The translations under genes were made by a program, and so were the position numbers. This document shows positions 14,796-53,140 of a DNA stretch of 64,000 nt, in pieces. Every line of letters begins with the position of its first letter. Positions within the stretch are counted from its first letter, which is position 1. Source of the DNA: Paramacrobiotus metropolitanus (lineage: Eukaryota; Tardigrada; Eutardigrada; Parachela; Macrobiotidae); contig NW_026570231.1 in assembly GCF_019649055.1 (NCBI RefSeq), positions 434,001 through 498,000 on the forward strand. Direction: 5' to 3'. The notes beneath the pieces were generated by a model, which searched no databases, had not been told where the DNA came from, and saw only the letters and a program-made list of their open reading frames with translations.

Positions 14796-17700
14796 TCACG
14801 ACTTAGCAGCTTTGGTTCGCTTTTTAACACCGATCGGTCCACCAGCTAAATAATCTTCGAAAGATCCGTCTCCTGCTCCTTGTGGCAGTGGAGATGTGGA
14901 TCGCTGAGGTTTTTTCCTGTCTTTTCCGGCTGTGGACTTTACCGCGGTTTTGGTGATTATGCTGACCACTTTATGGAAGGTGGGCAATATATTGCTGCGA
15001 TTGAAATACGCAATCGTGCATACGATGACAAGCGGAACGATCCACATCGTCGCCGGCGTAATTTCTGGTTCGGAAAGGCGTCGCCTGGCCGTAAACGAGA
15101 GCACAAAATGACGGAATGTCGAATTAGCTGTCACATGGAGATCGGGGCTCGTGAAAACGTAGTCCTTTTGGGAAAGACTGGATTCAACTCGGATTATATA
15201 GTTACGGTTATCCAGAGGAACTGGACTGAACTGGAATAGTGGACTAATGGAAAATGACACACACTGAACAGATTCATCCGGTCGATCCGCTCGGTAAAGG
15301 CAGACCTGCAAAATTAGTTGCTGTGTGTGTATGCATGACTGCATTACGAATTTACGATGTCAGTTTCATTGTCTTACAGTAGCAGCAAAACTTAAAGTCA
15401 AAAACGGTTAATATTTTATATCAATCAACGAGAAACATTATAAAAATTCAACTGAGTTAACGGTAAGTTACCTGTCGGAAAAGTGCAAATACATGTTTAT
15501 AATAGCGACCATTTAAAACTACGACTACTGAGTCAGATATCACAAGTTATTCACAACTGACTTGTGAATAATTTTTAAACAAACGCACTAACCTTAAGCT
15601 GATTCAAAAACTCTTTCGTGGCATCTAGTCTGCCCGTAAATTCAGCCTCGTTGAACCCTCTAAGCGTTCGAAATGTTAATCCGTGCGTATCATCCGTTCC
15701 CATTTGGACTACTCTGTTGGCTGGAGCGGTCCATTTTATATCCAAGCGCTCCAGCTCTCCCTCCTTTGGTCTGACTTCATAACCGCATCCAGCCTGTAAA
15801 AATGTTGATAATAATCAAACATTCCAGCCTAAAAGCATGTTTCTCACCTTCAGGCCGGAAATTCTGAAATGACCAGTGCTTCCGGTTATTGCTTCTTCCT
15901 GCATCTGCAGACAGGGCTCACGACTGACGGCTTCCATCGTGATCCCTTGCTCAGGCTCACCACCCAACGACGTAACAATTCCAAATGCGCTATAGGCTAC
16001 CCGTATGCCGCGCCATTCCACGGAAGCCGTTTGGCCTTCCGTCAATGTTACAGATTTCGAGGCTGGATCGAATCGGAACTCTTTCACCATCGGACGAATA
16101 AGATAATCTCCTAATCCAATGTTAATAAAGGAGACAACGCCCGTCTGGTCGGTGAAGTTGTTAAACCTGTCAACGGATTTGCACTGAAGGAACACAACCA
16201 CCCAAAGAAATATCGCCTACTGAACATTTCTAACATTGTAGGAATCTATGTAATTCGTACGGTTTAAAGTTTCTTAAGGAATTAATTATTTACCGTGATC
16301 CGGCCGAATTGCTAATTGAAACCAGAACGCCAGCAACCGGCTTTCCTTCGGCATCGTTAGTATGCACTCGGATTTCAGAAAGTTTGATCGCTTTGAGATC
16401 ATGGCTGCTGGAATTCCATTCGAATTCGTAGCCACGCTTTTCTGCTGCAATGCTCTTTATAGCTGTTCGCGGCACCGGTCCAAGACTGTGAGACAAAACC
16501 ACAATCAGTATCTACCGGAAAGACGGTACAAAATCACTGAACTCAATTTCGTAGCATCACCATGTACTGTAAAAGCAGCCAGAGTTGTGTCGTTGTAACT
16601 TTTTATATCACCTGTATCGTCCACTTTCGTCTGTTTTACCACGCAAGACATCGTTTTCCGTTGTGATAGTGATGTCGACATCCGGAACAGGAGGCAGTGT
16701 ACCACCGGTGATAATAACGCCTTTGTTTCCGTTAAGTACAATGACGTTTTTGTCACATTGATCTAACCATAATAATTAAGAGTGATTTAAGACCAAGGAC
16801 ATTTGTAACGCAGCCTGCAATTAAGACGCCAATTTTGCGCCACTACAGTACCTGTGACGGCCAGCTCCATTTGGTTCGGTTTAAATAACAACGTTTCCGA
16901 TGACGGAAACAAAACAAGGTTTTCTTCAGCAGGAAAGTACTCCAAAAAGCTATACTGAAACGTCTCTGGACTAATCAGCTTTGGTGGAGCGGAAGGAGTG
17001 AAAATCGAAGATGACCCATCGGATGTTCGTCTACAAACGAAACATAATCAGCAAGGTCTTTAAGTTGCAGCTGCATCATGACCGCAAAACGGGATTAAAA
17101 ACATGCCAAATGCGGGACTAAAAACATTTTTCGAGTGAGACCATTTTACTTACTTAACGCGCAACTTAAAGAGACCTTTATCGTCGTCGGTGTTCACGGA
17201 GATGTTAGTCAGATGCCCAGTCGCGTGCAAACTCAAACGCACCGGAGAATCTGTGTTGAAAGTGTATGTGTCGTGTTCAAATTTGTGGCACGACTTTGGC
17301 TCGATGTCATATTCCCCTGCAAAAACCCAACTGCAATAATACTTATCAACACTATGCAAATAATATCTATATCAACCAGAAATTTGTCGGCATTTCTTTA
17401 TTGATTTCGTGATGATAAGTGTCACATCGACTGCCGCTAGCAACGTATAATATATACTACTGTATTATGATGTTAACATTCACAGTACCGTACCTGCATC
17501 TGGTAAGCACAGCTCAGTAAACCCGGCCTTAAGGTTATCTTCTTTTCGCGCCTGCTTTCCTTTTACAGAGTATGCAATGGCCGTAGGATGGCTGCTCCAG
17601 ATCTCAAACAGAAATCCAGTTTGTCTAAAACCGACAATAGCTGACGGCTTGCCGACTGTAAGTTCAATTGTCTTCTGAATTAAATCCCAACAATAGCGTT

Positions 17701-20179
17701 TGGACGGCTCGACCACTTTCACCAAATGCGTTCCCAAGTCCACATTATTAAATTTAAATTTTCCATCGTTATCAATTAGTGAAAACACTTCTCCATTGCT
17801 AGCCAGCAATGCCACTTTCAAATCACTCGGACAAGTGCTCAAGCAATGCACCGTTCCTGAAACACTGCCCAAAACTTGCGAAAACAGCAAATCAGTTATG
17901 GGATAGTCCGTTAATTTGATGATCTTTTCTGCTGGAGAAAACATCAGTCTTTGGCTTTTATCCTGAGGTGCATCGAAAATCGACAATTTGTATTCGCCGG
18001 CTTCCAATGTTGTACAAAAATGATCATCGCGAATGACAGTGTCCCGTGAGATCCCGGTTTTTGCCTCTACCGCTTCGAATGTGAGTATACGATTAACTGG
18101 ACGCAGGGTTTTAATTTCCCCGCACACACTCATTCCGCGGGCTACAATCATGGGTACTTTCGGTTCAGTCGGGGTAATTTTCACATAGGATGTCGGAAAA
18201 TCATAATGGCTCTTCTTAACTTCAATTTTATACCATCCGGTAACTGTCTTTTCCAAGCGGTAAATTCCCTTCGTGTCGGTTTTGGCAGCGAGAGTGCCGT
18301 TTAAATAGATTTCGGCGCTGGGAACACCCGATCCCTTTGATGACGTAAACACACTTCCAGTGGCGGTAAAGCCTTTAATCTCAAAGGTATTGCTGATGGT
18401 AAACAAATCCTGACCTAGTTGCACTTCCATATGAGACGGTTCTATGTCATATTTCGTATCGCCGCCTTTATACGTAGGCAAAATACTATAAATGCCGGGA
18501 ACCAGGGACGCAAATATGAATTCTCCGAGTTTATCAGACTTCACTCCACAAAGCTGGCGACCATACTGGGGATGATCTTTTGCCAAGTCGCTGGCCATTT
18601 CTTTGTCACACCCGTCAATACCCTATAATAACAATCATAAGTCAAGCATTCGCAAACAGACGGATAACTTATAATGTTACACGTATAGTGTTATATGTAA
18701 TAAATAATTACATACGAAATAATGACACGAGTACACATCCTCTAAGAAAACCATTTCATCAATTTTATTAACTTACAACTACAGCAATTACTTTAATGTC
18801 GCTGTAATTACAGGCAAATGAATCAAAAATATCTCGTACGCACCTTAGCGTCGATGGTTTTTGAATAGAGCAAAAATTTCACACCGGCAACCGGTTCCCC
18901 ACTGCTCTTAACCGACCCTTTCACAGGATAGCCACGCACAACAAGTGAATTCTGTGGCAGTTGAAGCGTGGAATCTTTCAACGTGGCAGTCGATTCCGAT
19001 TTATGCAGCCTGAAAACCGGATGACTTGCTCTGATGGTATATGTTCCCGGCAGAAGGTTAGGTAAGGCAAAACTGCAAAGAAAAATTCCGCCGATTCAGT
19101 TTTTTTGCAATGTACAGAAAAACCAGGCTGATAGATCGCACAGACTGCATTACTGAAACACTTCGGCAAAGGAATACGAAAAATAAGAAATGTAAACAAA
19201 ACTCACTCTCCACCACTCTGCGTTGTCGTGGTAGACACTGCTTTGCCCGTCTGATCCAAAACCGAGATTGTAACACCAGCGGGCCCATCAGCACTGCTGA
19301 TGCTGTTGACTTTACCAACCAAGGAGTACCCAATGAAACGGAAATTCAAATTCTGCTGCATAGAGCAAGGATCTGTCGTCCCGTCAATATTTACTGGAAT
19401 TCTTGACGGCTCTGCAAGGATTTACAGTGTAGATTACAATCACGTCTTAAACGTCACGGGGACTTCCACGTCTTAAAGATGATTTTTACGCCAAAAAAAA
19501 CGACCAAGCAATAAAAAAAACGGCCGCACCATTCTGAAACTAATCCATAGCTGTGCGAAAACAGACAACGAAATAAAACCGTAATTTCCTACCGAACGAC
19601 AGTCCTTCCGGTCCAGCGACTGCAAGGATAAATTCGCCTTTTTTCCCAAAAACGGGCACTTCATAGTTCCCATTATTGACAGCACAAGGCGCCTGGTACT
19701 TCAGATTACCCGCTTTGTCGAGCAGCCGAACCTGCAATTGATGCCCAAAATCAATAATGGGTGAGAAAATGCACAACACAGAAACCTAGAATGAAGTTCA
19801 ACACGATCTTCACTCCCCGGGTGAAGTCACTGGCATTTTACTGATGCCACGCACCCGGACTGCGGCGTTTTTGTCGGCTCAACAGCGGCCAAGTCCTTAA
19901 TTCTTAATTGAATTTCGCACGAGACCAAGGCTCCCTTTGCAGTTAACACCTGCACCGCGATTTGGAAATCTGAGCATCGAAAGTCTTACCGCCGCTCTTC
20001 GCGGGGGGATCCGTTCTCACCTCAATTTTACTGTAATCCATCGGAAAATCAGACTGTACAAAACCTCCACAAATCACGGGATTTCCATTTCCGTATTCAT
20101 TTGTCCGCACACAAGTCATAAGCTGTGCTACGGCCCAACAAAACCATGGCACAGAGAAAGGTATGTTCACCCAGGTCAT
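14796..20179 (-). CDS. NOMO1: Nodal modulator (NOMO), ER membrane protein
   Basis: Twelve exons: 20179-20021, 19731-19593, 19411-19207, 19072-18844, 18622-17494, 17316-17154, 17030-16852, 16762-16612, 16485-16294, 16166-15848, 15793-15593, 15305-14796, coding for 1191 residues (human 1222). NOMO forms an ER complex with TMEM147 and nicalin and joins the multipass translocon. It has a signal peptide, a string of carboxypeptidase-regulatory/Ig-like beta domains, one C-terminal membrane helix and a short basic cytosolic tail. Landmarks are ICGGFVQSDF, KLGEFIFASLVPG, VKEFRFDP and GEPEQGITMEAVS. For the tenth exon the acceptor at 16166/16167 was preferred because it keeps phase and removes a poorly aligning insertion. 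Confidence 0.93.
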
Positions 20180-22128: not shown

Positions 22129-25100
22129 ATGGCGCTCCATCCAGACTGCACCAGCTTCGAAAAAACAGGATTACTTTCTGTAGAAGCGGAGGAAAATCGC
22201 ACATTGCAGTCTCATGAGGAAGTTATACCAAAAATTATACAGGAAAGCGAATCGGAAGCGATTCCTGCATTCAGTGAATACACATCAGCCCTTCCGATCT
22301 CCCATGTAGAAAGTGCACATTGTGCAGACTGTAATGAAAATGTATCTCGCCTTTGGGTCTCAGAATATAAATTCTCAGGTAATGAAAGAAACCATATTTA
22401 TTGGCTTTAGAGTTCAAACACAAATTTTTGTATAATTGTGCTATTGTTTGCAGAAAATGTGGAGCATTGGTATAAGGATCCGTCGTTGCATTTATACTGC
22501 GCCAAATTCTTCCAGTGCTTGGTAAGCTAATCAATATTTAATGCAGATGAATATCTCCGACAAGTGTTTCAATGGATACCAATTCAGGCTGTTGTTACCT
22601 AATTATTGCTACTTTTACTGTGAAAGCAAATATTATTTGTTTCTTAGTGAAAAACTAGTGTTAGACTTGTTTTTAATTATTTATATAGCCATGATAGATA
22701 TAAGGATTATATCATTATAAGCAACTGTTTACGTAGTGCAGTTGTATATAATCCGTCGTCGGGTGACCTTATTTGAAATAATAGTTATATTATGCCTTGT
22801 GTCTTTCACTAATGCGTTTGAAAATATTATTATGATGGGTAAAAATGTTGCATTTGTTTGCAGGGAGATCGCATGTGGATTTATAGCGGTCCCCTTTTGC
22901 TCCTCTCTCTCCGCCCGGATACGTTGACGTTACCTGCATTATACGGGTTCATAACAGGGATATCGGCCATTATTTTTGGCCCGCTGTTTGGGGAATGGGT
23001 TGATGCGAAACCACGGATGCATGGTAATGAGTGCTTATAAAAGCGCACTTTCAGTTGATACAATGTTTTGCATTTCTTGGAAATCGTATTAAAACTATTT
23101 TGCTGGCTAATACTGGAACTGGTAGTTGTTGATTTGTTACTGTACTAACTACCTTAATCCTTTAGGGCACATCGCGGCACGCAACGTAATTCCATGACAT
23201 TAACAGAATTTAGTGTTCCTTATAGACATTTTCAGGTGTTAGCAGTTACTAGTAACTCGTATTGATATTGTTAGATTTCACGTATGTATATATGTCTTGT
23301 TTTTTTTAGCGGCTATTGTGACAACTATAATGCAAAATGGCTTTTTGGCCATGGCAGCCTTACTACTGGGTTTCGCTGTCTTCATGCGGAATCAGATGGA
23401 GGAAATCAATCTTATGCTGTGTGTTGCCGGTCTGATTTTGTTCAGTTTTGTGGCCAACATTTTTTATGGGGTAAGAATGAGATTAGTGAAATATATCTTG
23501 GGAAATATATTTTGGCCAGTAAAACGCAAATAGTGTGACAGTGGCTGCGATCTTTATTACTGTGTTTGACTGGCTATTGGCCAGAAAAGATCATGGAGAA
23601 CAGACCTTTTGGGAACGGTTCCATCCCATGTAAATTGGAATAGATTTTTCATTTGGATGGGATGAACGCAAGGCGTTGCCTTTTGTTCAGCATACTGAAT
23701 AAAGTTGCTGAACATATTATTCTCTCGGTTGTGTAGTAGTGTCCCTATTCCCAACATTGTCCTTCATTTTTGACTTTTCGGAGACTGCCAGAGTAAAGTT
23801 TGTCAGAAAACTACTTTTTAAAGTTTGTCAGTTGTGTTGTAGTTGTAGAACCATGTATGAGTCCAAAAGTACAGATATGTTTTTAATGTTTGATTACGTT
23901 TTTGTTACAATGTATGGATTGCAAACGTAAAACTGATTTGCTAAAAAGTTGTTTTACAGACATCATTGGTGATAATCGAAAAAGACTGGGTTGCTGTCAT
24001 AGCAGGAGACGATTCATCAAAATTAGCACGTAAGGGTTGTTTGACTTTTGTGTTCCGTAAACGGTGGTAGTATTAAATTGTCACGTTGTGAGTGAGGTAT
24101 TCTTTATAATTTGTAGGTATGATTGCTGCTATCCGGAGAATTGAGTTGATAGTCCAAGTTTTGTGCCCTTTGGCCATGGCCCAACTGTTAACATACTGTG
24201 GCACCGGCGTAACAGCCGTCACAATTGGAGGATGGAGTCTTGCCACTATGAGTGTGGAGTATGCTTTCTTGCGACAAGCCTGGCGCTTGTCGCCTACTAT
24301 GAAGGAAAAGGGACCAGCTCCTGGTCCTAAACCAGGAGAAAGGACTGAATCGGACACAGTATTAATGGTGAAAAAAGTGTTCCGCACTTGTTACTCGATC
24401 CACAATGGATGGACAATGTTCCGCCGCAATAAAGTCGGGACTGCCGCGTTGGCTATCTGTCTGCTGGAAGCCAATGTCATTGTTTTCAACGGCGTGACAT
24501 GTGGTAAGTTTTGACTGATGATTGACTGGAAAAATCTGAGAAAAAACTGAAAACCGCAGTGTCATTAGCTGCACAACGTACAGATACTCAGCGTACTTAC
24601 GGTTAGCTCCTTCGGTGGTTTGGATGATTGACTAGCCTTTTGGTGGTGGGTTATTAAATATTTCTAACGGTAGTGTGTTGTTAGTCTTACAAAAAAATAA
24701 CTTGAACCTAAATTGAATACTTTCATATAATTTAGAGGAATTTAGAGAATGTCTGTGCAGGCACAGCCATTTGTAAACATACCGTAGTGATTGTGAGTAA
24801 AGTAGTATTTGTTACTTGAGTATCAGTTTTAGTCATTAAGTCTACTTTATAAAGTAGACTTAATGACTAAAACTGATACTCAAGCTAACAATCTACTTAT
24901 ATACTACTATATAATATACTATAATCATATAATATAAATAAATATAAATATATAAATATAAATAAATTTATATATATATTTATATATTTATATATTATAT
25001 ATTATATATTTATATATTATATATATTATATATTATATATTATATATTATATATTATATATTATATATTATATATTATATATTATATAATTATATTATAT

Positions 25101-27031
25101 ATTATATATTATATATTATATATTATATATTATATATTATATATATTATATGTTATATATTATATATTATATATTATATATTATATATTATATATTATAT
25201 ATTATATATTATATATTATATATTATATATTATATGTTATAATATAGTATATAGTATATGGTATATGGTATATAGTATATAATTATATAGTATATAGTAT
25301 ATGGTATATAGTATATAGTTAATATGTATGTATATAGTATATAGTATAGTATATAGTATATAGTATATAGTATATATTATATATTATATATTATATATTA
25401 CGTTTTCTTGCAATTGCGTCGGTAAAAAAACAGTGACGACACGCTTAAGCCACGCCACCCAAGCCACTGCACTACACCATGATAATTACAGTCACTGCCT
25501 CACATGTGCGGCTGCGCCATCCCTTGTAGACGGCACATTTACACAATACTTAAATACTAAGACAGTGTTGCGCCAGAGCAGCTAATTCAATAAAATATTC
25601 ATTGTACTTATAAAATCCTGAATCAACGGTAACAACAAAACTTTTGCGAGTAAAACAAATCACCGGTTAGTGGAATCACAGGTTAATATTAAAAATCATA
25701 GCATAAATCATAATATTAAAAATCACAGCGTGCACGTTAGCAGCTTCCCTCAGCGAAAGCCCTTTTTCTTTGACGTCAGTACAAGCTGATATTACACGTT
25801 TCTCCATATTACTGTTTATTCATTCAGTATCACACTCCAGAAAGCATAATTTTGAGAAATAAAGAAATAATTCACATTAAAAACAAACAAATCTGAACTG
25901 AATGGCGCAGCCGCACATGTGAGGTAGTGACTGTGATTATCATGGTGTAGTGCAGTGGCTCGGGTGGCGTGGCTTAAGCGTGTCGTCACTGTTTTTTTAC
26001 CGACGCAATTGCAAGAAAACGATTCAAGTTTTTTAAATAATTTCAAGTACTATGTGAAGAGCACACCTAGCTCTATCGGGTAAAAAAAGAAAACCAGAAG
26101 GAAATCGGTTTGTGGAATGAAATATTTCGGGTGTTTCACTTAAACGACCATCGCCCATTCACTTAACATAGTGTTTCACTTAAACGACCATACGAGTACT
26201 ATATAAATATAGCAAATATCTAATTAGATATTTGCAGTACTGCAGTGACACAGTAACGTCTTCATGTTAGTGCCACAAGTTTGTACCCAGAAAATAAGAA
26301 TTGCGAATCTGTAATAGTTTGCAACTGTGGATGCGCGCTATTATATTATTTAATTTGCAGGATTCGCAGCGACGCAGGGATTTTCCAATACTGTCATCTC
26401 CTTGTTGGTTGCCGGTGATGCGCTGGCCGGTGTAGTTAGCACGTTCATTTTTCCTTTATTCAGGCGTCAATGTTCTCTTACCCGAATCGGCTTATGGGCT
26501 GCGTCCATACTGTGCCTTACTCATGCAGTTTGTGTTGTGTCCAACTGGCTACCCGGTAGTCCGTTCGATCTGTACAAAGCCTTAGATAATTCCCATTATC
26601 CACCGGAAGTGATCGCGGTGACCAATGATACTGAATATTACAACATCGGATTGGCCGTGATGGGTGTGGAGGAAGAAATCGTCTCACCACTTCCAACATC
26701 CACCACAGAATTACTAATTCACAATCCCTTGACCGCTATGATCGTTTTCTCTTCCTTTTTGACTGTAGGACGGTTTGCGTATGGCTTGATGGACTTAACC
26801 GGTTCGCAGTTGTTACTGGAAAATACCAGTGAAGAGGATCGGGGCGCGGTTTGCGCGGTGCAGTATTCGATTAAACAGATCTTTGTCCGTCTGACCTATC
26901 TGGCAGCCATTCTTCTCCCGTGGCCGCACACCTTTGGTCTCCTTGTGATACTGTCGTTTTGCTCTACTTTTATGTGCCTGGTGTTGTTCCTGTATTTTTC
27001 CTGGAGATGTGGTCAGAAAGATGAGCGATAG
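22129..27031 (+). CDS. SLC40A1: Ferroportin (SLC40A1), iron exporter
   Basis: Seven exons: 22129-22378, 22454-22521, 22864-23023, 23310-23470, 23960-24029, 24117-24503, 26361-27031, giving 588 residues (human 571). Ferroportin exports ferrous iron across the plasma membrane. After a divergent acidic N terminus, landmarks are WGDRMW-like GDRMWIYSGP, FGEWVDAKPR, EKDWVAVIAGDDSSKLARM, AAIRRIE, ATQGFSNTVISLL and LLENTSEEDRGAVCAVQ. The residue matching human Cys326, which hepcidin binds, is glycine (FNGVTCGFAATQG). The last intron (1.86 kb) holds a perfect palindrome, an AT microsatellite and an inverted-repeat element. Confidence 0.92.
24815..24884. repeat. Perfect 70-bp palindrome in the ferroportin intron
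   Basis: The sequence reads CTTGAGTATCAG... to the centre at 24849/24850 and then its exact reverse complement, with 35-base arms and no spacer or mismatch that I can find. Perfect spacerless palindromes of this length are unstable in vivo and in cloning, so an assembly artefact should also be considered. Confidence 0.85.
24891..25400. repeat. AT-rich microsatellite tract
   Basis: About 500 bases made of TATATTA-type and then TATAGTA-type repeats with almost no G or C. It lies between the palindrome and the inverted-repeat element in the last ferroportin intron. Its assembled length is likely unreliable. Confidence 0.9.
25401..26021. mobile_element. Inverted-repeat (foldback/MITE-like) element in the ferroportin intron
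   Basis: Two 120-base arms, 25401-25520 and 25902-26021, are inverted copies that differ at only about three positions. The termini read CGTTTTCTTGCAATTGCGTC and its complement. The 381-base centre has no coding frame. No target duplication can be read, partly because the left flank is microsatellite. Confidence 0.85.
26131..26191 (+). repeat. Short direct repeat, 21 bp twice
   Basis: GTGTTTCACTTAAACGACCA plus T occurs at 26131-26151 and again at 26171-26191, 40 bases apart, in the last ferroportin intron. Confidence 0.8.
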
Positions 27032-29464: not shown

Positions 29465-32400
29465 ATGGATGCGTCTCAGTGTATTCTTCCAAAGCCGCCC
29501 ATTGTGCGGCGCAATTACACAGTCATCCCGGGCGAAGAATTAATGTAAAGCATTTCAGTAGTTCTTTCGCTGTATCGATTGTCAATTTATGATGTGATTA
29601 TGGCTTTAGACTTCCGGCGCCATGCTGGAGACTAGGAACGCCCAATCTTGTTTGGATGTATTTTTTTCTGGGCATCGGCGTTCCACTTTTTGCACTGTTC
29701 CTGATAAATTTCAAAAAGATAAAAAATGTTTGCCTACTGAAAATTCGCAAGGGATTCACCTGTAAGCGCGCGACAGCCGACGCGGAAACGGAAGAGAAAG
29801 CCGAAATCGCCGAGGAGCTGAATATTGAAGCACCGGCTGTGGATCGGCTTGAACAGCTGGCACAGGCCCGAGCCAATAGATCCAAGCTCGACATATTTCT
29901 GGCCGAAGCATCGTCTCCTCAAGCACCACTCGGACAAGTTCTGGTTGGTATAAAAGTGCTGGTCAAGGGTTCACCGTGTACTTATTATTTTTTTATGCGG
30001 GCACAATGTAGACTTGATAGTTGATAACAACAGAATTTTTCAGTAGCAACATTTCTGTGGCATTCGTTTGCTGCAATATTCATGGCTGTAGCGCCTTAAC
30101 GCATTACATAGGCTATTAATATAGTACTAAGTACATAATTAGCTACATCCAGGCTTGCAGTAATTCGGCGCCGAATACTGACAAATCATGTGCATATATG
30201 GTTGTAATTGCAGAAACATTGAATATTTTACCTGTAGTTAAACAATCAATCAATATTTTGCAGCATAACGCTGACATCTCCTGAACCGATTTCTTAACAA
30301 AGCCAGCGGAACTGGCATTAATAATTTTCCGCACATCTATGCTTGTAATGAATATTCTAATCGATAGTTGCTTCCGTCTAAAACTTTTTTTAAAAAACAA
30401 CCAAACACTTTGATTCGTCGATTTAATATTACAATAACCAGGATACTGCGGGATACGTGAGGTGCACATGCATTAAGAGGTGGGAATAACCGAGCGTGCC
30501 CTTTCGACTCTTCGGTGCTACTACTTGAAAATTTTCGATATCAGTTTTAAGCATATGTAGATATAATATACATGGATTTGCATAGATATAGATTCCTCAC
30601 GATTTATGTAGATTGTGTGAGAAATTGGTTGCTGTTGTGTGAAAAGTTTTGTTGGTCATAACGCAGATAAATAAAAAAGAAGCAATCGCAATATATTTAC
30701 ATGTATATTGATATGGGCAGTTGTAAATCAGTACAGATAAAGTACGCTCCGAGATTTTAAAAGGTTAATCAGATCAAGATATTAGAAGATTGTTAGCTGT
30801 TTGTAATAGAGCGCCAATGAAAAAAGATAAATGTACATTTCAAGCAGTTTAGTGCATTTTAGATGGGAATTGGCGTATTATGCAGCGCGGTCTCTTTGTC
30901 GATATACTTGGTGAAAGTGTCGAGGTAAAAAAGCAGTTGTCACATCTGTGTCAACTACATTCTGCAAGTTTGGAGCTACACTTTTTAACGTTTTTATTAC
31001 TCCAGTAAGGTGGAAAGTTTAGAAATTTGTGGAACACTGCCGAACGCCTACCAAGTGATTGACTTGTGCGCCAATCTCTACATGCTTTGTTTCTTCGTTA
31101 TACGGGTATAATATAATGGCTTTCTGCATGCAAGTCTGAAGATTAACCTCCGCATTCATGAATTGTATTCTTTTGCATTTTCACACAGCTAGCTGGGTCG
31201 GATCGGAAACAAAAAGTGATTACATCCATGTTTTCCGTCGTTGACTATTTTACAATACCCAGTGTTGTGCTGGGTGTCATTCTAAACCGGTATTTTACAG
31301 GTGAGCGCTCAATTCGTTATACGATTATTGTGATAATTGTTCATCCTGCTTACCATCGCATACAACATGTGGCGTGGCGATTGATTTGTTTTCTTGCCTT
31401 TAGGCTTTGCGTTTTTTCGCGCCTATAATTTTCAGTGGCTAGTGGAAATCCTTGCACATCGGCGCATTCTTCGATCGACAAATTCCGTTCGCTTGGCGAA
31501 ACTAATTTTCCTTGTCTTTGCTATCATCATTATTGCCGGTGGATTTTTGCACGTGGTAAAGCGCACAATTACATTTTAAATCCATTGTTACTAGATAAGG
31601 TTTTTTCTAAATCTGGACTAGTTTAAGTAAAAATTCTGCTACGTACAATCAAACAAAAATAGAAAGCTAAATTACATTTTTTAATTTCTGTCAAGTTTTA
31701 TTTTAAAGGATACTACAAAATAATACAAAGACTTCTTAGAGAACTAAAATCCAAACAAAAGCATAGAGCAATACAGTTGCAGAATTCGTGCGCTCTGTAG
31801 AATAATCACCACCGTCTTCATTGGCAAGAACCGCATTACCCGGCCATTGTTTTGCTACCGTTACAAAAACAACAGTTTATTCAGAATTCTAATAACGAAT
31901 GTAGATGTGTTGCCAATGTATTAATTAATATCATTTTGTCATAGTGTGCATCAACACCAAAAAGCTGGCAATTATTACGGGATGTCAATCACAACACCTA
32001 TCGATTACCGTTGACTTTTAGGCTATCTAGAAAAATGGTTTTCCTAATAGGGAGACAAATGCGGTTTCTTCTCAGAAGATATGTCTCGTAAATGTCTTCA
32101 GGCTACGATAACGATAATTTTGTTTACTGAATCATCCATTTTCTGGTTTGTTGAAAAGCAGAAACATGCAAATCTAAAGCACGAAATGGAAACATAAATA
32201 TAAATTTTTATACATATATATATATATATATATATCAAGCACAATTATTAAAATTCTTTCATTTTTTTATATAAACCTTACATACAATTAATGAAATGTG
32301 TTTTGAAAATACAATTTTACTGGAACAAGGGTATGATTTTTTCCCGCAAAGGTCTGCATTCTTCGAGTACGATTTTTCTTCATATGGTTGGAAAAAATAA

Positions 32401-35400
32401 ATATTTAGTTTATGCGGTATGTAGCAGTAAAGCTAATTATAAATAACGATAAGTGGATTTGTTCATTTGTTCCTATAACTTTGCCAAATGTACTTGTGTT
32501 GATAAGGTATGCGATTTTTCTTGAAGGCAGAAAACATGGGTGACCCTTGGCTGTACGATGTGGATAACGTGCCACTTTACAATGGTCAAGCCATTGTGTT
32601 CTTCCGGTGCTTTTTATATGTTTACGGAAGGATTACTCTTCTTGATCTGAGCGGAATGAGAATGTATACCATGCTTGGACGCGTTATCATTTACATCTTC
32701 CAAATTCTAGCTTTGGTAAGCTCGAATCCCCGGCATGTCATTAAAAATTTAATGTTTGATACATAGCTTGACGCAGGTATATTTAAGCAGCTATAGTCTT
32801 TATGCAATTGAAAAGCATACTATTCAAGTATGCATGCAAATAAATTGTTCGTGGTTCAGTGTTAACTTGTAAACCCAACAAATTTAGAGTTCACACTTTA
32901 CGTATATGATAAGCACCTTTGGTTTTTATAGGGAATTGTGGCGCGAGCTATTCCACAGATTATTGAACGAGTTAAGCTCAAACCGGACTACGATAAAAAA
33001 TATACGCCATCCCCTATGTTCTTGTAAGTAACTCGTCTTTCGGGCGTACATCGAATTGCGACGGTATAATTATTATACCTTTAATTTTGGCCATTAAAAA
33101 CACTTATTTTACAAAAAACATTGTGGTACAACAATGTTGATTTGTAGGCATATAATTGTCTGCGGTCATGTGCGCGCCTCAGCCATGGAAGCGTTTCTTA
33201 AGGAATTTTATGTAAGATAGCTGTATGAAAAATACTTGACTTAATAAATGTTCGTTTGCGACAAAATAGTTGTGGGCCAGGAATATCATTATAATGACAT
33301 TATTCTGCCGTAGTAAATTATGCATAGTGTATGACAGTTATATATATACTTGACAGGTAATGGTGCGTGTACTTACCCTTATAGTCGGTAATGGTGCGTG
33401 CCTTATAGTCGGTCGAAAACAGTAACGAACAAGTTAATCATTATAATTACGTACTCTAAAGTGCGGCGCTGTTGGTTCTTGCAAAGTTTATTGTTATCTG
33501 TTCACAGCATCCGGACCGGGATATCAGCGAATTTTTCAAAATTGTGATCTTATCCGAGTAAGAGATCATAAACTCGTGGGGTTCATAATTATCCATCTTG
33601 CCCAGTATCTCAGAACTCTGAAGAATACAAATGTTTGAAATTTTTGAGAGAAAAACCGGATGAAATTATGGAATCGCTGCAGGAGAGATATTTCAGTCGA
33701 CTGGATTATCTACGGGGGACAGTTATGAGTCTGAAGGATTTAGCCCGTGTGAATTTGGTGGAAGCCAGAGCTGTATTGATTATTGCCGACCGGACAGCGG
33801 CTGACACGGATGCCGAAGACGCGGCTAATATTATGCGCGTAGTATCCATTAAAAATTATAAAGACGACGCACAAGTAATTGTCCAAATAACCCAATATCA
33901 CAACAAGGTAAAGACGCTACTGTAATACCGCCGCAATCTCAAAAACCTTCCACACAATCACGTTATGTTCCGAAATGTCACGGCAGGCGTATCTGCAAAA
34001 CATACCCAGCTGGAATCCGGAAAACGGCGACATATGCATTTGCTTAGCAGAACTGCGATTGGGATTGCTAGCACAAAGCTGTTTAGCACCTGGGTTTTCC
34101 ACCTTGATGGCTAACTTTTTCACTTCAAGGACTTATGACCCAAATAAAAAGGTAATTCTTATAAAAAATAGAATTTATTGATTATTTATTTATTGTATAG
34201 TGAATAGAATTTATTGATTGACCTTTGCGGTTGTCACCCTAGAAGTGTTAACAATATTATTATTGATCATGTATCAGCAGGCAGACGCATAAATTGTACA
34301 ATAATAAGATTCAGCCAGCGTACGGATGCTCAAAAATATAATAATTTTAGTTTTCAGTTTGATGAGGACTGGCAGCGGGATTACGTTCAAGGAACTGCGT
34401 TAGAATTATACTGCCGGCCATTTGGAGATGCTTTTGTGGGTATGCTGCTATACGACTGCAGAATCACATCCATAACAGCTGAACTGATTAATCGAACTCA
34501 ACATTAACCAATTAGTAAAAAACCGAGTTACCTCAAAATCTACAATTCGAGTACACGTAAGAAAAACATCCAAAAAACAACGCAACTGGTGTTTTTATGC
34601 AGGTATGACCTTTGCACAGGCATGCGAATTTTGCTATGTAAGTGCACGTGCTCAAGCGAAGCACAAACTGTTCATCACACGCTGATGCTGCAGCGCTTTC
34701 GTTTCGATAGTTCACAGTTAAGGTGCCATATTTACTGACAGCATAACCTATCAATATATTCAACATTAAAATATCAGGTAAATTTGACACTGAATGTGAT
34801 AATAATGTCGCTGCAGAGACGTCTAAAAATTGTCCTGCTGGCAATACAAGCTGATCCGTCAGACATAACAAGTATGCCGCAAATCAATCCGCTACCAACT
34901 ACAATTATATTGCCGGGAACCTGTGGATATTTCATTGCTGCAGATACGCTAGAAGCCGACCGGTACACAAAGCACTAAAATAACCAGCTGAACGGTAGCT
35001 TTGTATTCCGTTGCTGACTATCGTAACATTAATTTAATAATTGTAGTGCGCAGTATTATTGCCCAAAATGTCATGTTGACGTGGAAGATGTCCAGCTGAT
35101 AAAAAAGTGTAGCTGCAGATCGCTGGATGACCCTGGTAAATACCAGTCTGGTTACACGCATAATTGGCTGCATTTACCTCCTTTGCAATTGATTGCGTTC
35201 AACGCGGTAAAGCTATTTTTGAAAGTGTCGTTTTTTAGATCATGATTCTCTAAGAGAAGACGAAGAATCAGATGAACTACGAAAAATCGCGCATCAACAA
35301 TCGGTTCTAGCGAAAACCGTAAACAAGCTCAATGCAACAGCCGTGGAATCGAAAATCTGGTCGTATATTTGTCGATATCCGGCAACGTGCGTATACTATA

Positions 35401-38178
35401 TTGCGCCTATACTAAGATTTTTTAACAGTGAGATCATGTAATAATTTTATATGATCAGTCCTTCTGCGAGTTTAACGAACATCAGCAAAGCTGACGCGGA
35501 AGCGCCTCCAAAAGAGCATGTGATTCCCTGTCCGAAAAACGAAAACAACGAAAGCATGTACGACTCTACAGGTGCGTTACTAAGCTCAAGCAACAAGGAA
35601 TGTTTTCGGAAATTTGAAGTCAAATAGACTTTACTGTTCAAAAACGAGCTTTTTCACTTTTTTGGCACTTCTCCTGAGTTCTGCATATCATACATTAATA
35701 ATTATTCAGAAGGTTTCTGATCATTCGCTTCTATGACGTTGCACTAGTGCAAACGAAGCGATCTTTAAGGGGTATGTATATGTATTACGTATACTATATC
35801 TGTATAGATATTTTAATGCACTTCGACAATTACTGTAGATCTGACTTAGCTTTAATACGGCGTATATATACTACTCGTATGTTATCATTAACTGATTTAC
35901 GGAGTTGCATGATATTTTTGCATAACAACTATAATTTTAGGGATGTTTCACTGGGTTCCTTTGCGGACCATGGGTTCTGCCACGGTGGTAAGTTAAGAAA
36001 CAGCAAACAGAGACAATTTTTTTTGTTATATTACTGCAAACAAAACTAGAAGCCCATACAAATTACTGCATTATCTGGACAGAACAGGAAGAAAGCAGCA
36101 ACGGCGACCTTTAAGCGCCACATTGTCGTGTGTGTCTTGTCGCAAGAAAAATCCCAGATAATCGGTCTCTCGAGCTTCATTTTTCCTTTACGATCCAGTG
36201 TAATCCCGGCTAAAGAGCTATTGGACATCGTGGTTTTGGGTGATCCAAAGTTTCTCGAAAAAGAGTGGAAATATCTGTATAATCTGCCGGGAATCTACAT
36301 AGTCAAGGTATGCATATCACTGGGGTCTGGGCATGACCATTGTGATAAAAGTCTGAACGGCGACCGTTGTGAAGTCCGGGACCGGTTAGTAAAGCTATTC
36401 ACGTTTTCGACGCAGGGCACGGCTTTGAATCGGTCTGACTTACGAGCGGTCAATCTAAATTCCTGCACCATGTGCGTCATCCTCGGTGCGCCTAACAGTG
36501 CGGAAAAGGTTGCCGATCCATCGATGCTGGACAAGGCCGTAGTGCTGGCCACACTGAATGTGCGGGCCATGAGATTCTCCAAAGACGAAGGACGACTAAT
36601 CAGCGGAACGGACGAATCGGATACAACTCCAGATTTACCGGCTAAGCCGCTGCTGCAAAGGCAACCGGCACTTTCCACATCCAAAACTGTCAATTCCCTC
36701 CAGATTCCGCTCGATACGCGGCCATCACTAACAAGAAAAATTTCCCAACGGCCTTGTCCAAATAGGACGTCGGGATATGAAGTTCCCATCATTACAGATT
36801 TAGGTAAAACAAACAAGTTTCTGACGTTCTAGTACTGTTATTTCTTTCGCTTTTAACACGTATACGAAAGTTTCAGGCTGATATTCATGCGATCACCCAA
36901 TTACTATAGTTGATTGGTGATATTTTGCAGTGCGTGATTCCAATGTAATGTTCTTGGACGAGGAAGACACTGATCTGCCGGGGACAGAATTCTACATGAC
37001 TCAGCCTTATTGCTGCGGCCGCGCTTTTGCTGCCAGCGTTCTTGATCTCCTTATGATTACGTCCTTTTTTAACCCTACCCTGACGAAAGTTATTCATACG
37101 ATAATATTCGGAGGCGCTTCTCTAGAGCTGGAACGGATTATGGCAGAAGGAGCGGGATTGATCGGTGGCGAGAATATATCTAAACCAGCGGATGTCACCA
37201 ACCAAGTAACAAAAAATTAAAATACTTTTAGAAAACCATAAACTGAAATTTGCGCAACCTGTTTGCAAATCTTATAACAACAAGCTCCGGTGCGGCGCAA
37301 CTTCATAAGATTGTACACAGATTATAGCGGCGCAATGAAAGACGACTGTTTTTATAACTATTTCTCCTCATTACTCAGGTTTCGGTCATTCAGGAGGAAA
37401 TAAGAGAGGGCTCACTATCGTCACATGTGGTAAGCATAAAACCTTAACAGTCCGTCCGAGTGTTCGTTGGCACGGTACATGTAAAGCAAAGGTCACGTGT
37501 AACACTGTATGAATATGTGCATATGTCTAGGCACATACATAGGATCCAAGAGGAAATGGCGATTTCCTTTCATGTTGTAGTGACATAACATTGTTTCAGG
37601 GCTCAGCGTATGGCGGTCTGTTCGTGGATGCTTTAAACAGCATGGGTCTAGTGACACTGGGACTCTACCGGAAGCTGTCGCCTGATTCTCCGAAGCGTTA
37701 TGTGATATGCAATCCACCTGAATCCTTCCCCGTGCAGGCGACAGATCAGATTTTCGCTTTAAAACGCGCCAACTGGCAGTGGCAACCACCGCTAAAACAG
37801 CTCCAAACCGCCGCATCATCGCGTAACCGCATCATCGACTTGGATGTGCGCCTACTAAAGGACAAGCTGAGTACAATCAGTCAGGATGTTCTGAATGTAC
37901 AAGGCCAGTACGAAAACCTGATTGTGGACGACGATGGAGCGATGGTTTTCCGGAAAAGAACCACCACCGGGACCAGTTTTACGGTGCCGCTGGTGCTGTC
38001 GGAGAACGGTTCCATAATGATCGATGACAACAGCGACCCGGAAGGTTCGGATACGGACAAAAATACAGTCGAAGAAGATATTATATCTCTTGAGCATAAA
38101 TTAGCAACCATGAAACGCGATGTACGTGCCATGGAAAACAGATATTTACGTTTAATACGAGGCAGCTTTTCGAAGTAA
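29465..38178 (+). CDS. BK/Slo1-type channel homologue with lost K+ selectivity filter
   Basis: Twenty-three exons join in phase to 1289 residues: 29465-29544, 29610-29943, 30863-30924, 31006-31105, 31189-31300, 31404-31555, 32527-32715, 32932-33023, 33148-33211, 33508-33557, 33649-33907, 33987-34151, 34358-34435, 34778-34962, 35047-35135, 35239-35386, 35459-35571, 35941-35987, 36050-36307, 36416-36803, 36931-37205, 37379-37429, 37600-38178. The architecture is full Slo1: S0, S1-S6, RCK1 (HIIVCGH, DAEDAANIMRVVSIKNY, QSCLAPGFSTLMANFF), the YDSTGMFHW linker, and RCK2 with a calcium bowl. The pore reads RITLLDLSGMRM where Slo1 has VTMSTVGYGDVY, so the K+ filter is absent. S4 keeps one of three arginines. 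Two donors (GTTGGT after exon 2, GTGGGT after exon 13) are weak and rest on the alignment. It is a divergent KCNMA1 paralogue, probably non-conducting for K+. Confidence 0.88.
31736..32102 (-). CDS. Candidate 3' exons of a nested antisense gene, possible GPI-anchored protein
   Basis: Two minus-strand blocks inside a Slo-like intron look like exons: 32102-32009 (acceptor after CGTAG, 31 codons starting PEDIYETYLL, donor GTAATC) and 31854-31736 (acceptor after GGTAG), which join in phase. The second ends in a hydrophobic tail (ATVLLYAFVWILVL, then stop) after a small polar stretch, as in a GPI-attachment signal or terminal membrane helix. An AATAAA on this strand follows about 35 bases downstream. 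The protein is not recognised and upstream exons were not found, so this could be chance. Confidence 0.3.
32211..32235. repeat. TA dinucleotide microsatellite
   Basis: About twelve TA units in an intron of the Slo-like gene, just upstream of the pore exon. Confidence 0.85.
33357..33414 (+). repeat. Short imperfect tandem repeat in a Slo-like intron
   Basis: The units GGTAATGGTGCGTG and CTTATAGTCGGT occur twice in tandem order with different spacers. Confidence 0.6.
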
Positions 38179-42306: not shown

Positions 42307-43700
42307 ATGCCCAAACCTCTTTCCCAAGATGCGGTGGATATCATCCGGTATATGGCGGAGGTGCGTGAACGTATTTTACGAAAACAACATTAACAATAAC
42401 AAGTAGAAGGACTGATGAGTAATAATATAACTATATCTGTATTAAAATCTTGGTATTCCATTGTCTGTGTAACACATAGTACTCAGTAATAGTAATTTTA
42501 AGTTTTTAGTTACGAAGTAATTTTTTAACTTGTGAGCTGTAAGTTATCAGTTAACAAGTGTTGTCTTTTTCAGGAGAATAAGCTGGACTGTGCTACCATT
42601 GCTGCGTTGATTGGAAAACAGCGTTCGTTCATCCAAAGGATTCTCAAGCGCGTCGATCCTCTCACCGGAGAACTCACTGTCGCAAAGGCAGGACGGCACC
42701 AGAAAACGTCGGAATCAGAAAATGATCGAATCCGTCAAATGGCGCTTCAAAATCCATACATCGGTTGCGAAGTACTTGTGTACTCTGATATGCTAATTAT
42801 TAATTAATAATGTTAATAATTTCTTCCCCAATTTCTGTTTAAGTTTTGTATATGTACAGTACACTGCACAGAGTACAGCGCAGATTGCTTGAGTATGGGA
42901 TCGGTATATACTTAATTCACAGTAAATGTTAATCGCCACAGTGTTACAAATGGGATTTAAGTTTGCTTTTTTGCAGGCCTTGACATCCATGTACAATGAA
43001 TTAGTTGCTCCCCCTGACAGAAGAATTTCGAAATCCAGCATCCACAGGCGATTGAAGAGTGTTGGCATTAAGGTAATTACGTAAGGAATTTACAGTAGAA
43101 GTGTAGAAAATATGGGATATCTTATAAAGATATGTCGATTTTTTTCGTGGCATAATTTTTGAAGAATTGTATATCGCAGTCTGACTGGGCCGGGGATTGC
43201 AAAATTCGGGAAGTGAGACACTTCAATTCAAACAGTGAAACATGTCAGATAATGAAGCGATTGGAAAATATGATTTCTTTGAGCGATGCTTTCCCTCATG
43301 CATGAATCCTCCTCAAGTAGCAACTTCACTGTCACTAGCAGCACCGGGATGATACAGTACTTGATGAAATGCTCATTGTTGAATGTTGTAGGTTGTTAAA
43401 ATATCGGCCGCTGATCCAGAATTACACAAATTCAAACAGTTCCCTAATTCAAAACATATTTGGAAATTCGAAACAATAAACAAGAAAAACCGAGCAAGCA
43501 GACGGCAGCCCGAAGTGGAGCAAATCGAAATGGATACGGTTGAATCGATTTCCATAGAGTTTCCTCAACTGGTTTATCCGACCTTTGCTCTACCGATGCC
43601 GACATCCATTGTGCCTCCGGAAATAGCAGAATGCCAAGATACAGACAATATTGAGATTTTTGTGTATCCACCAGGGCGCCCAGCGATACAGCTGCAATGA
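42307..43700 (+). CDS. Tc1-type helix-turn-helix protein without a transposase catalytic domain
   Basis: Four exons, 42307-42360, 42574-42771, 42977-43072 and 43392-43700, encode 218 residues. The N-terminal half looks like the bipartite DNA-binding region of Tc1/mariner transposases: a first helix-turn-helix (DCATIAALIGKQRSFIQRIL), a KAGRHQKTSESENDRIRQMA linker resembling the Tc1 GRPRKTS hook, and a second helix-turn-helix (RISKSSIHRRLKSVGIK). After that the Tc1 catalytic DDE/DDD domain is missing. Instead there is an acidic, proline-rich tail of about 80 residues. Three introns split the frame and no terminal inverted repeats are seen, so this looks like a host gene derived from a transposase DNA-binding domain. 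Function unknown. Confidence 0.65.
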
Positions 43701-49401: not shown

Positions 49402-51423
49402 ATGATCCAGCTTTTATCCATATTACTGCAGCCGTCGTTCTTGGTGTTGGTTGTAACGGCGTTCTGTGTGTGGTACTACTTGAAACACCGAAATCTTCCT
49501 CCTGGCCCGCGAGGTAGCTAATTAAGCTTCAGCTGACCATTCACGTACGCATTTCCTACAGTGGTTGCTTTTGTCTAGGTCTTCCTTTGCTTGGATACGG
49601 ACCATATCTGGGCCCATCACCCCAGGATGCACTGTATGACTTGCGAAAACAATACGGGAATATTTTCAGTATGTACCTGGGTCCAAACTTGACCATTGTG
49701 CTGAATGATTACAAAGCCATTAAGGCGGCGTATATCGACCAAGCGGATATATTTTCCGGACGTGCTGATGGTTTTATCAGAACACACGCATCTGCGGGCT
49801 CGGATGGCGAAATTCACGGTAGAAGTATAACAAAATTCGGTTGATAACAGAAGCCGTTTTAGCATGTACTTTATTGGCAAATGTTTTGTTATCGCAGGTA
49901 TTGCTACTTTGGAAGGAGAGTTATGGAAAATTAGCAGGCGGTTTATGCTGCAGACTTTCCGAAATTTAGGCATGGGCAAGAATCGCATTCAAGAGCAAAT
50001 CTTGGAGGAGGCTGATTATATGCGTGACCTTTTCGCCAAGTCCACCGGCACTCCATTTTATCCCCGACCGATTATCAGCGCCATTGTCGCCAACGTCATA
50101 TGTGTACTTTGCTACGGCAGACGTTTCGATCATAACGACCCCATCTTCCGGGAGATAATAAACGATAACGTAACCATTGCCGACACGTTCGCTCAAGCGG
50201 GCCCCATGCAGTCGTATCCCATTCTGCGTTTCCTTCCCGGGAAATTCCTGACAACCTGGCGGAAATACAAAGTCGCATGGAATCGTACCATTGGCTTCTG
50301 TGGCAAGGAAATTGAGACACACAAAAAGAATCTTCAGCAAAACGAAGAGGATGCGGACTATATCGATGCCTTCCTGAATCAGCAAAAGAAAGTTTCCGCT
50401 TCTGGCAGCGAAATTGAGCAAAAGGCTTTCCAGCGTACGTACAGATATGGGAAAATCGCAAACGAAACTTGAACTTATCAAAGGATCCTGAATTAAATTT
50501 TCACAAAGTTCCTGTCATACAGATGAGGATTTACTATTTAACGTGCGTGCCCTTTTTGGTGCTGGGACCGAAACCACAACAGCATCCATGTCCTGGGCCT
50601 TTCTCTACATGATGCACTATCCGGATGTGCAGAAGAAAATCCATGCAGAAATGGATGAAAACGTTGGCCGCGATCGTTTGATAACTGTCGATGACCGGGG
50701 TGTGTATTGTATCTATACGAGTACATGTACAAGTACATACTGTAAGAATATCGTATACGTGGTATGTACTAGTTATAATAATTAATATGAAAATTTAGTT
50801 CGGATACGGTACTGTAGAGTAGAATGAATTGTACATTGCGTAAAATACAAACCTCGCACCACATGAAGGAAACCACACAATCCGTTGACTGTTTGTCGTT
50901 AACGTAGTTAAACTCCCGTACACCGAAGCGGTTGTCCGCGAAATACAGCGTTTGGGTAACGTCGCACCATTTGGTGTACTGCGCTGTAATTTGGAGGAAA
51001 CAACATTACTGGGCTATCGCATACCGAAGCGGTCGTTTATCCTGCCTAACTTTTTGGCCGTCAACATGGACCCGAAACTATGGGACAATCCAGAGTCTTT
51101 CCAGCCGGAACGTTTTCTTGACAAGCATGGAAAAGTGACGGAACCGCCTTATTTCATGCCGTTTTCCATTGGTCAGTCATTAAGTCTACGAGTATTGCGT
51201 TTCTACAGGTGGTTTCAGTTTTGTTAATGCTTTTGCAGGAAAACGAGCTTGTGTCGGAGAAGCACTAGCGCGAATGGAGATATTTCTCTTTTTTGCTAAT
51301 ATCTTGCAGAAATTCCGGCTAGAAGCGCCAAAAGACTATAAACTACCGGGAATCAATCAGAAAATCGTCAGAATTTCTTCAGAACCAGTACCCTTCAAGA
51401 TACAGGTTTGTGTTCGTGATTAG
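49402..51423 (+). CDS. Cytochrome P450, CYP2 clan
   Basis: Six exons, 49402-49513, 49579-49818, 49898-50434, 50523-50699, 50908-51171, 51239-51423, give 504 residues. It begins with an ER membrane anchor followed by the hinge LPPGPRGLPLLGYG. The I-helix reads LFGAGTETTTASMSW, the K-helix EAVVREIQR carries ExxR, the PERF region is FQPERFLDKHG, and the heme loop FSIGKRACVGEALAR contains the cysteine ligand. All catalytic motifs are present, so the enzyme should be functional. CYP2-clan members oxidise steroids, fatty acids or foreign compounds; the substrate cannot be inferred. Confidence 0.94.
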
Positions 51424-52019: not shown

Positions 52020-52844
52020 TTACCAGTATTTTTTCTTTGAATCGATACTTTTTGTACCGGGTCCTAGAGCTATCACATTCAACAGACCACCAACAACCGT
52101 AATATTCAGAAAGAAACCGTATATGAGAATCTCCATAATCTCATTGTGCATCCAGCCAGATATGACTTTGTAAAAATTGAACAAAGTTAGCCAGCATGCT
52201 AAAACCGTGGCCGACAGTTTCGTCTTGTATCCAATTATAATTAAAATGGCTAAACTAAAGCCGACGATAAGTTTGATAATTTGCAGCGGTGTGATGCCAA
52301 ATTCCACACTAAATGCCAAAAACACACGTCCTGCCAACTGCAGCCAGTTGGTCAGATTTTGCAGGTCAACATAGTGGTCAGCAGCTTTATACAGGATGGG
52401 CACCGCATTAGCATCGTTGCACGCTTCCGCCAGTAGTAGTAATACAGCACCAATACGAGCAAACTCATTGGGAATCATTTCGTCCCAGGCGATGTTATAT
52501 ATAAATCGCTGAAAAAATACCTCAAAAATCAGTGCCAGACATGCGACGTCCACGTATCTGCGAAACAGTATTAAACCAGCGGGAACCAGTTGGCAAAATA
52601 CTGAGATCACGATTAGTGCACTGCTGACGAACAGTCCACATGCCCACACTCCGGCAATATACCGCCGCTGCATCTCAAATTGCGTAAGTATTCGCAGACC
52701 ATCTTCCAAAAATGTGGCCACTAACAGCACGCGAGCAATATGGGGCAGGATGTTCTTATTTTTTCGATAAAATTCGTCGGATTTTTCTTCCAGACTGCCA
52801 ATAAATACTGTCAATTGTGGGGAAGCGTTTTTATCGGCTGTCAT
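52020..52844 (-). CDS. SURF4: SURF4 (Erv29) cargo receptor homologue, single exon
   Basis: A single uninterrupted frame of 274 residues (human 269). SURF4/Erv29 cycles between ER and Golgi and packages soluble cargo into COPII vesicles. Landmarks are LPHIARVLLVATFLEDGLRI, QLAGRVFLAF, IIGYKTKLSA and VGGLLNVIALGPG. The C terminus SKKKYW carries lysines at -3 to -5, a dilysine ER-retrieval signal as in human SURF4. About seven membrane helices. The frame stays open upstream but family similarity starts at this ATG (MTADKN). It has no intron in a region where most genes have several. Confidence 0.92.
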   Translation of the reverse strand: MTADKNASPQLTVFIGSLEEKSDEFYRKNKNILPHIARVLLVATFLEDGLRILTQFEMQRRYIAGVWACGLFVSSALIVISVFCQLVPAGLILFRRYVDVACLALIFEVFFQRFIYNIAWDEMIPNEFARIGAVLLLLAEACNDANAVPILYKAADHYVDLQNLTNWLQLAGRVFLAFSVEFGITPLQIIKLIVGFSLAILIIIGYKTKLSATVLACWLTLFNFYKVISGWMHNEIMEILIYGFFLNITVVGGLLNVIALGPGTKSIDSKKKYW

Positions 52845-53140
52845 TGTAGCTTTATAAAGTAAGGAGTAAAACAAAATGCATAAAGAGCCAAAGACGGAAA
52901 ATCTCACAATCACATTGCGCGATGCAGCGGAGGAACTTGCGATACTTCGTACCAGAATTAGTAGTACGTATTTTTATTGCTGTGCTGTTTCTGAACACAA
53001 TTTTGTTGTCAAGGTATTGCAAGGCAACTTGAAAGAAAGAAGTACGCATGCAAACAAAGAAACCGAAACGCACAGATTAAAAATCTTAGAAAAGTTTACC
53101 GATTGTACAAAGAGCAACGATACTGTATATGAACATTAAA

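Follow-up and report, generated by a model that had tools for sequence, protein, structure and literature searches.

A Tardigrade Clade of Slo1-Type Genes with a Replaced Potassium Selectivity Filter

Introduction

K+ selectivity depends on a filter of the TVGYGD type, one of the least variable sequences in animal physiology, and the CNG channels are non-selective relatives in which that filter is degenerate. In NaK the filter reads TVGDGN (PMC9822992). The plant nuclear, Ca2+-regulated Ca2+ channels include CASTOR, POLLUX and DMI1, and CASTOR is described as a tetrameric RCK gating-ring channel that lacks TVGYG altogether, its filter being AD265S(A)GNHA; it is Ca2+-selective, and silent as D265N (PMC6697748). 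By descent, the gene at the centre of this study belongs with the animal BK channel Slo1 (KCNMA1, slowpoke, slo-1), with which it shares the Slo-like RCK, BK_channel_a and Slowpoke_C families and the residues D367 and E535 of RCK1. The tardigrade proteins that we call group A differ from Slo1 in a filter of the LLDLSG type and in the loss of R207, R213, E321, D895 and D897, and the protein at the centre of this study also has a longer turret and matches neither Ion_trans nor Ion_trans_2.

The genome paper on H. dujardini and R. varieornatus reports that a calcium-activated potassium channel is duplicated in both species and notes that it has been implicated in anhydrobiosis signalling (PMC5531438). 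The word “channel” occurs four times in its main text, and those passages make no mention of a filter (PMC5531438). In the literature searched, whose coverage excludes most subscription journals, no title or abstract among those listed dealt with a filter change in tardigrade Slo1-type channels, nor did any paper on filters in expanded Slo1 families surface. A first-pass annotation of the DNA knew of no described Slo1 protein with this filter. As far as these searches go, then, the duplication is already known and the replacement of the filter is undescribed.

The Window Gene

The window, the whole stretch of 64,000 nucleotides that was analysed, comprises positions 434001-498000 of contig C11 in the 170 Mb genome of Paramacrobiotus metropolitanus. 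An intact Slo1-type gene of 23 exons occupies 29656-38178 on the plus strand, from an annotated Met to a TAA stop. The first-pass annotation had proposed such a gene with its frame intact across 23 exons, and the spliced window sequence does equal NCBI protein P0002 (1236 aa) letter for letter over 23 coding exons, with AG/GT at all inner exon boundaries. NCBI names the protein “calcium-activated potassium channel slo-1-like isoform X2”, and by sequence scoring against known structures it matches Slo1 far better than Slo3 or Slo2 (KCNT1).

All exons lie on the plus strand, and from S1 to RCK2 they are collinear, exon by exon, with Slo1. The first annotated coding exon (29656..29943, within the spliced match to P0002) encodes S0 and a linker; because its frame is open upstream as far as 29593, the true start may be further 5′. 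Three exons (30863-30924, 31006-31105 and 31189-31300, spanning 30863..31300) encode S1 to S3, and the next (31404..31555) encodes S4 and S5, with S4 reading GFAFFRAYNF against GLRFLRALRL in Slo1. The pore exon (32527..32715) carries the turret, the pore helix, the replaced filter and the start of S6. The end of S6 and RCK1 follow at 32932..34151 (exons 32932-33023, 33148-33211, 33508-33557, 33649-33907 and 33987-34151), where E321 is replaced by Q and D367 is retained, and the equivalent of E535 is retained in the first of the exons at 34358..34962 (34358-34439, 34603-34637 and 34817-34962). A linker and RCK2 span 35047..36803 (35047-35135, 35239-35386, 35459-35571, 35941-35987, 36083-36307 and 36416-36803). 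The exon equivalent to the Ca bowl (36931..37205) reads FLDEEDTDLPGTE against FLDQDDDDDPDTE in Slo1, with L for D895 and G for D897, and the last two exons (37379-37429 and 37600-38175 plus the stop, 37379..38178) contain the end of RCK2 and the C-terminal tail.

The window holds several neighbours. On the plus strand there are ferroportin (FPN1) exons at 26354-27028, with a long TA-rich simple repeat between ferroportin exons at 24925-25380 that yields Tyr, Ile and Leu runs in all three frames; cytochrome P450 exons at 49831-50469; and, at 42529-42801, a frame that by eye resembles the start of a Tc1/mariner transposase and has no Pfam match at 0.01. NOMO-like exons (17483-18622) and a SURF4 family protein near the Slo gene (52023-52973, E 1.9e-61) lie on the minus strand.

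A Replaced Filter

Translation of 32527-32715, which is flanked by an AG acceptor and a GT donor, gives AENMGDPWLYDVDNVPLYNGQAIVFFRCFLYVYGRITLLDLSGMRMYTMLGRVIIYIFQILAL. The observation that started this analysis, LLDLSG at the place of the K+ filter TVGYGD (codons 32638-32655), proved exact on re-translation, and the gap-free alignment with Slo1 that had been described from the pore-helix Cys through LGR was borne out as well. Slightly upstream, codons 32623..32631 encode YGR (residues 271-273), and the turret ahead of the pore helix exceeds that of the aligned Slo1 rows by 6-7 residues.

A hidden canonical pore exon in the window gene was considered and rejected, since the plus frames contain no pore-like G[YF]G: between 29000 and 38700 there are three matches to G[YF]G and one to VG[YF], none of them in a pore context and none between 31556 and 32931. 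These looser patterns were used because the strict pattern [TS]xG[YF]G, which has a single plus-strand match in the whole window, outside the gene, can miss a filter interrupted by an intron, which is the arrangement in the C45 gene.

The pore exon alone had no match to the PDB at 0.001. In the structural model of P0002 (first 1,100 residues; mean pLDDT 57.7) the pore segment, at local pLDDT 70-82, begins with a helix (263-275), continues as a loop (276-286) and ends in a long helix (287-315). The model thus predicts a re-entrant pore loop, although it is overall too poor to judge a pore. The model of P0123, a more distant paralogue (mean pLDDT 48.8), is likewise too poor for that purpose. The TM-scores of the Foldseek matches to Slo1 are about 0.2, too low to draw anything more from the models.

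Slo-Type Genes in the Genome

A search of the genome with the BK_channel_a profile gave 25 matches, and two pore searches followed by translation left 27 loci at which the pore loop could be read. The 17 matches of the first pore search comprised 12 pores (five of group A and seven of group B, as defined below) and five further exons. Of the 30 matches of the second, 15 were counted as pores (13 with GYG or GFG, two of group X), ten looked by eye like members of other K+-channel families and were set aside (L041, L042, L044, L046, L047, L049-L052 and L054), and five were set aside as further exons or repeats of a counted gene (L040, L043, L048, L053 and L055). Two BK_channel_a matches at which no pore was found (C107:99733 and C18:49715) were left out of the count.

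The canonical filter, TVGYGD or TVGFGD, is present at 13 loci, among them a plain Slo1 on C183 with TVGYGD, so that the intact Slo1 whose presence elsewhere in the genome had been raised as a question does exist. Some of the canonical paralogues have features of their own. At G000:C107:82971-130818 there is a cluster of GYG/GFG Slo paralogues in which, unlike in Slo1, the filter adjoins an intron (the exon starts STVGYGD), and near-identical GYG paralogues at G000:C22:1257528-1257659 (minus strand) and G000:C325:43278-43424 (plus strand) may represent two haplotypes of a single gene or the outcome of a recent duplication.

The remaining loci fall into three groups. Group A, with the filter pattern [LW]-[LI]-D-L-S-G, has five genes: the window gene (C11 at 466k), two others on the same contig (at 18k and 551k), one on C14 (1124k) and one on C120. 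Group B, with [FLY]-L-D-[LV]-[TI]-[ST], has seven very divergent genes, on C295, C46 and C103 and, four of them, on C105 (195653 to 367060). Two group B proteins, P0123 and P0124, were found in NCBI, both named “uncharacterized protein”. Their Slo-like RCK is above the Pfam cut-off and their BK_channel_a and Slowpoke_C are not, and P0123 matches Slo1 structures by sequence with a best E of 8.5e-33. All three families are above the cut-off in each of the group A proteins P0002, P0003, P0008, P0004 and P0007. At E up to 1, Ion_trans and Ion_trans_2 had no match to P0002, P0003, P0008, P0123 or P0124 and did match the control P0012.

Group X consists of two Slo1-type genes, L031 (G000:C14:1307192-1307362, minus strand) and L039 (G000:C3:427371-427529, plus strand), whose filters, TIGSPD and TIGGSE, retain TIG and have lost GYG. 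This is the kind of filter seen in NaK and the CNG channels, whereas groups A and B retain no part of TxG. Group X is possibly a separate loss of the filter or an earlier step. A turret motif, YNGQ or YDGQ, is common to group X and groups A and B.

Across the 15 group A and B sequences aligned, TVGYG and TVGFG are absent without exception and the whole loop is replaced (8/8 in A, 7/7 in B). The position of the first filter Gly holds Asp in every one of them (D278); Y271 and G272 are likewise invariant, residue 273 is always R or K, and just past the loop residue 283 is R or K in all eight group A sequences. Over both groups the consensus is YG[RK]-x-x-x-[LI]-D-[LV]-[STI]-[GST].

Other Species and the Age of the Replacement

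Whether related genomes carry the same loop had been named beforehand as a check, and they do: at least three proteins of Hypsibius exemplaris fall in group A, P0003 and P0007 with LLDLSG and P0005 with LIDLSG, which makes an assembly error very unlikely. Paramacrobiotus belongs to the Macrobiotoidea and Hypsibius to the Hypsibioidea. Among the best 120 of 4341 matches listed, group A occurs in at least two species, and group B proteins are listed from at least one. With residues 120-400 of P0002 as the query, seven proteins were found, six of these tardigrade proteins and one from Lingula (with TVGYGD); this search was non-exhaustive, as it missed the group A protein P0008.

The tree was built from 36 Slo-type rows (eight of group A and seven of group B, with the full NCBI protein used for a locus where one exists and L045 excluded) over 379 columns, without the turret-to-filter columns and rooted on the Slo1 of other animals. 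P0002 grouped with Slo1-type genes, in a set of rows that holds no Slo2 or Slo3. Support was 99/99 for group A and 100/100 for each of groups B and X. Groups A and B were joined at 94/94, slightly below the starred support level, and since group B sits on a very long branch, of 3.05 changes per column, this joining could be helped by long-branch effects; the YG[RK]...LD motif, having been excluded from the tree, provides separate support for it. All three groups came together in the best tree at 44/46, which is weak, so that one filter loss and two are both possible. The arrangement of A with X to the exclusion of B was mildly disfavoured (p-AU 0.033).

Within group A the window gene paired with Hypsibius P0003 (95/95) and P0004 with P0007 (99/97), and P0005, P0006 and P0008 formed one group (99/96) whose inner order is weakly supported. 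These cross-species pairings imply that at least three group A lineages with the new loop are older than the split of the superfamilies, and thus, on the evidence of the sequences, that the new loop took the place of the K+ filter before Hypsibioidea and Macrobiotoidea diverged. P0002 and P0004 both lie on C11, and P0003 and P0007 on Hypsibius contigs of 354596 bases, an arrangement in keeping with conserved linkage between the two tardigrades.

The gene models of P0004 (G000:C11 near 551k) and of P0007 place SURF1 (PF02104) and another N-terminal stretch in one protein with the group A Slo part. The occurrence of the same join in two species could mean that the genes are truly fused or share a transcript, or that annotation ran on in both genomes across neighbours that are conserved, and the presence of SURF4 near the window gene and SURF1 by its paralogue on the same contig is perhaps the remnant of a surfeit-type cluster.

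Selection on the Loop

In group A the 17-column loop has a conservation of 0.742 against 0.582 for the whole aligned region, and 13 of 313 runs are as high; in group B the values are 0.807 and 0.585, with 5 of 332 runs as high. The loop is thus better conserved than the sequence around it. The first-pass annotation had offered “pseudo-channel” as one description of the protein, and this term, taken to mean a decaying gene, finds no support; its other proposals, a subunit that silences partners, another selectivity and a calcium sensor, are the readings weighed below.

Invariant columns over A and B together number 22 of 283, and taken as a whole they show no enrichment there (3 of the 17 loop columns, p 0.14). 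Six of them are never the same in the Slo1 rows (W199, Y271, G272, D278, Y294 and Q297), and of these new invariant columns two belong to S6 and three to the loop, a share that has p 0.003 in a post hoc test. Of nine pairs compared for dN/dS, one group B pair was unsaturated (dS 0.93) and gave 0.16; dS was saturated in the other eight, including those within group A, and pN lay far below pS. The loop is therefore under selection and is not drifting. Taken at the level of sequence, this is a tardigrade clade derived from Slo1 with a rewritten pore under selection, and no pseudogene.

Voltage Sensor and Calcium Sites

Seven group A proteins were checked beside six Slo1 proteins, with Slo1 numbering placed by motif; the spacing of D-P-D fits the placement of D895 and D897 on the alignment. 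All the checked residues of S4, E321, RCK1 and the Ca bowl are retained in the six Slo1 proteins. E321, which we take to be part of an acidic ring at the inner mouth, is lost in all seven group A proteins, and D362 is E. In S4, R207 and R213 are lost and R210 is retained in 7/7, with N at 213 throughout. R213 is described as the S4 Arg with gating charge, D895 and D897 as side-chain ligands of the Ca bowl, and D367, R514 and E535 as forming the RCK1 Ca2+ site (PMC4319557, PMC6763263). The Ca-bowl ligands are gone in every group A protein (D895 to L, M, K or R; D897 to G or V). In the RCK1 site, D367 and E535 are retained in 7/7 and R514 in six of seven, the exception being Q in P0007, whose model seems doubtful at that place. 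With the main voltage-sensor charge and the Ca bowl gone, the RCK1 Ca2+ site would carry most of the gating.

What the Proteins May Do

Because the filter is replaced, the K+ selectivity of the window protein has, on established knowledge of K+ filters, almost certainly been lost. Our first choice, at a probability of roughly 0.4 and by analogy with plant CASTOR, is a pore for cations other than K+ that is ringed by Asp and sits under a Slo gating ring. The protein would still be tetrameric with its gating ring; intracellular Ca2+ that binds the retained RCK1 site would be its main gating signal, as it would sense voltage little and its Ca bowl would not work; and its pore, ringed by the invariant Asp, would pass Ca2+ or a mixture of cations and would not select K+. 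That Asp and the high conservation of the loop favour a conducting pore. The tardigrade clade has an RCK gating ring, no TVGYG and one conserved filter Asp in common with CASTOR, POLLUX and DMI1, although the likeness is one of principle and by description, as the tardigrade proteins file with animal Slo1 and the loops differ (DLSG vs ADSGN).

Nearly as likely is that the protein conducts nothing itself and acts as a silent regulatory subunit, which would join canonical Slo1 or the GYG paralogues via the gating ring and lower or retune their K+ current, the new loop serving as a structural plug that is perhaps held by a pair formed between basic residue 273 and Asp 278. Both of these residues are present in 15/15 sequences, the RCK domains are well preserved, and partners could come from the loci, 13 or more, at which the GYG or GFG filter is intact. 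The basic residues also weigh directly against a conducting pore, as 273 (15/15) and 283 (8/8 in A) are ill-suited to a cation path and could instead pair with the Asp, and so does the loss in 7/7 group A proteins of the acidic E321 of the presumed inner-mouth ring. The lack of enrichment of the 22 invariant columns in the loop counts against it as well. Silent relatives of K+ channels are reported to be under selection in plants, namely KCO3 and AtKC1 (PMC7757853). If the tardigrade proteins are silent they would resemble KCO3 in being selected though not conducting alone, but KCO3 is described as retaining a usable GYG pore and having lost another region (PMC7757853), whereas in the tardigrade clade the signature itself is rewritten. 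A mere silencer, moreover, needs no particular filter, and yet the conservation of the loop exceeds that of the sequence around it.

We consider it unlikely that the membrane part is only an anchor without a pore, for an RCK ring that relays Ca2+ signals to partners. Such a scaffold would agree with the failure of Ion_trans and Ion_trans_2 to match any of the five group A and B proteins tested while matching P0012, and with the retained RCK1 Ca2+ site of group A. A pure anchor would drift, however, and conservation is comparatively high in the pore helix, loop and S6, which carry new invariant residues; in group B, where BK_channel_a and Slowpoke_C stay below the cut-off, the sensor is not the best-kept part. 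A pseudogene, an error of assembly or a transcript in which another exon brings TVGYGD back is very improbable in view of the agreement of all 23 intact exons with the NCBI model, the lack of a pore-like G[YF]G in the plus frames of the gene, the same loop in Hypsibius and four paralogues, the low pN relative to pS (far below it) in the nine pairs and, more weakly because the aligner penalises stops, the absence of stop codons from 11 partial coding sequences.

Conclusions

Going beyond the preferred reading of a non-K+ cation pore, it is conceivable, and we put it forward tentatively, that in tardigrades a BK channel became a new class of Ca2+-gated, non-K+ and perhaps Ca2+-permeable cation channel, its filter rewritten once to an Asp-ring loop, which would make it a Slo-derived counterpart of CASTOR that later expanded to at least 12 genes in one species; the TIGSPD and TIGGSE genes may represent a stage on the way to it. 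A conserved animal clade in which the Slo frame and gating ring are kept and the filter is rewritten amounts to a natural experiment on what filter and ring do independently of each other. For the family in tardigrades, it means that K+ is very likely not carried by some of the proteins to which the label “calcium-activated potassium channel” is given.
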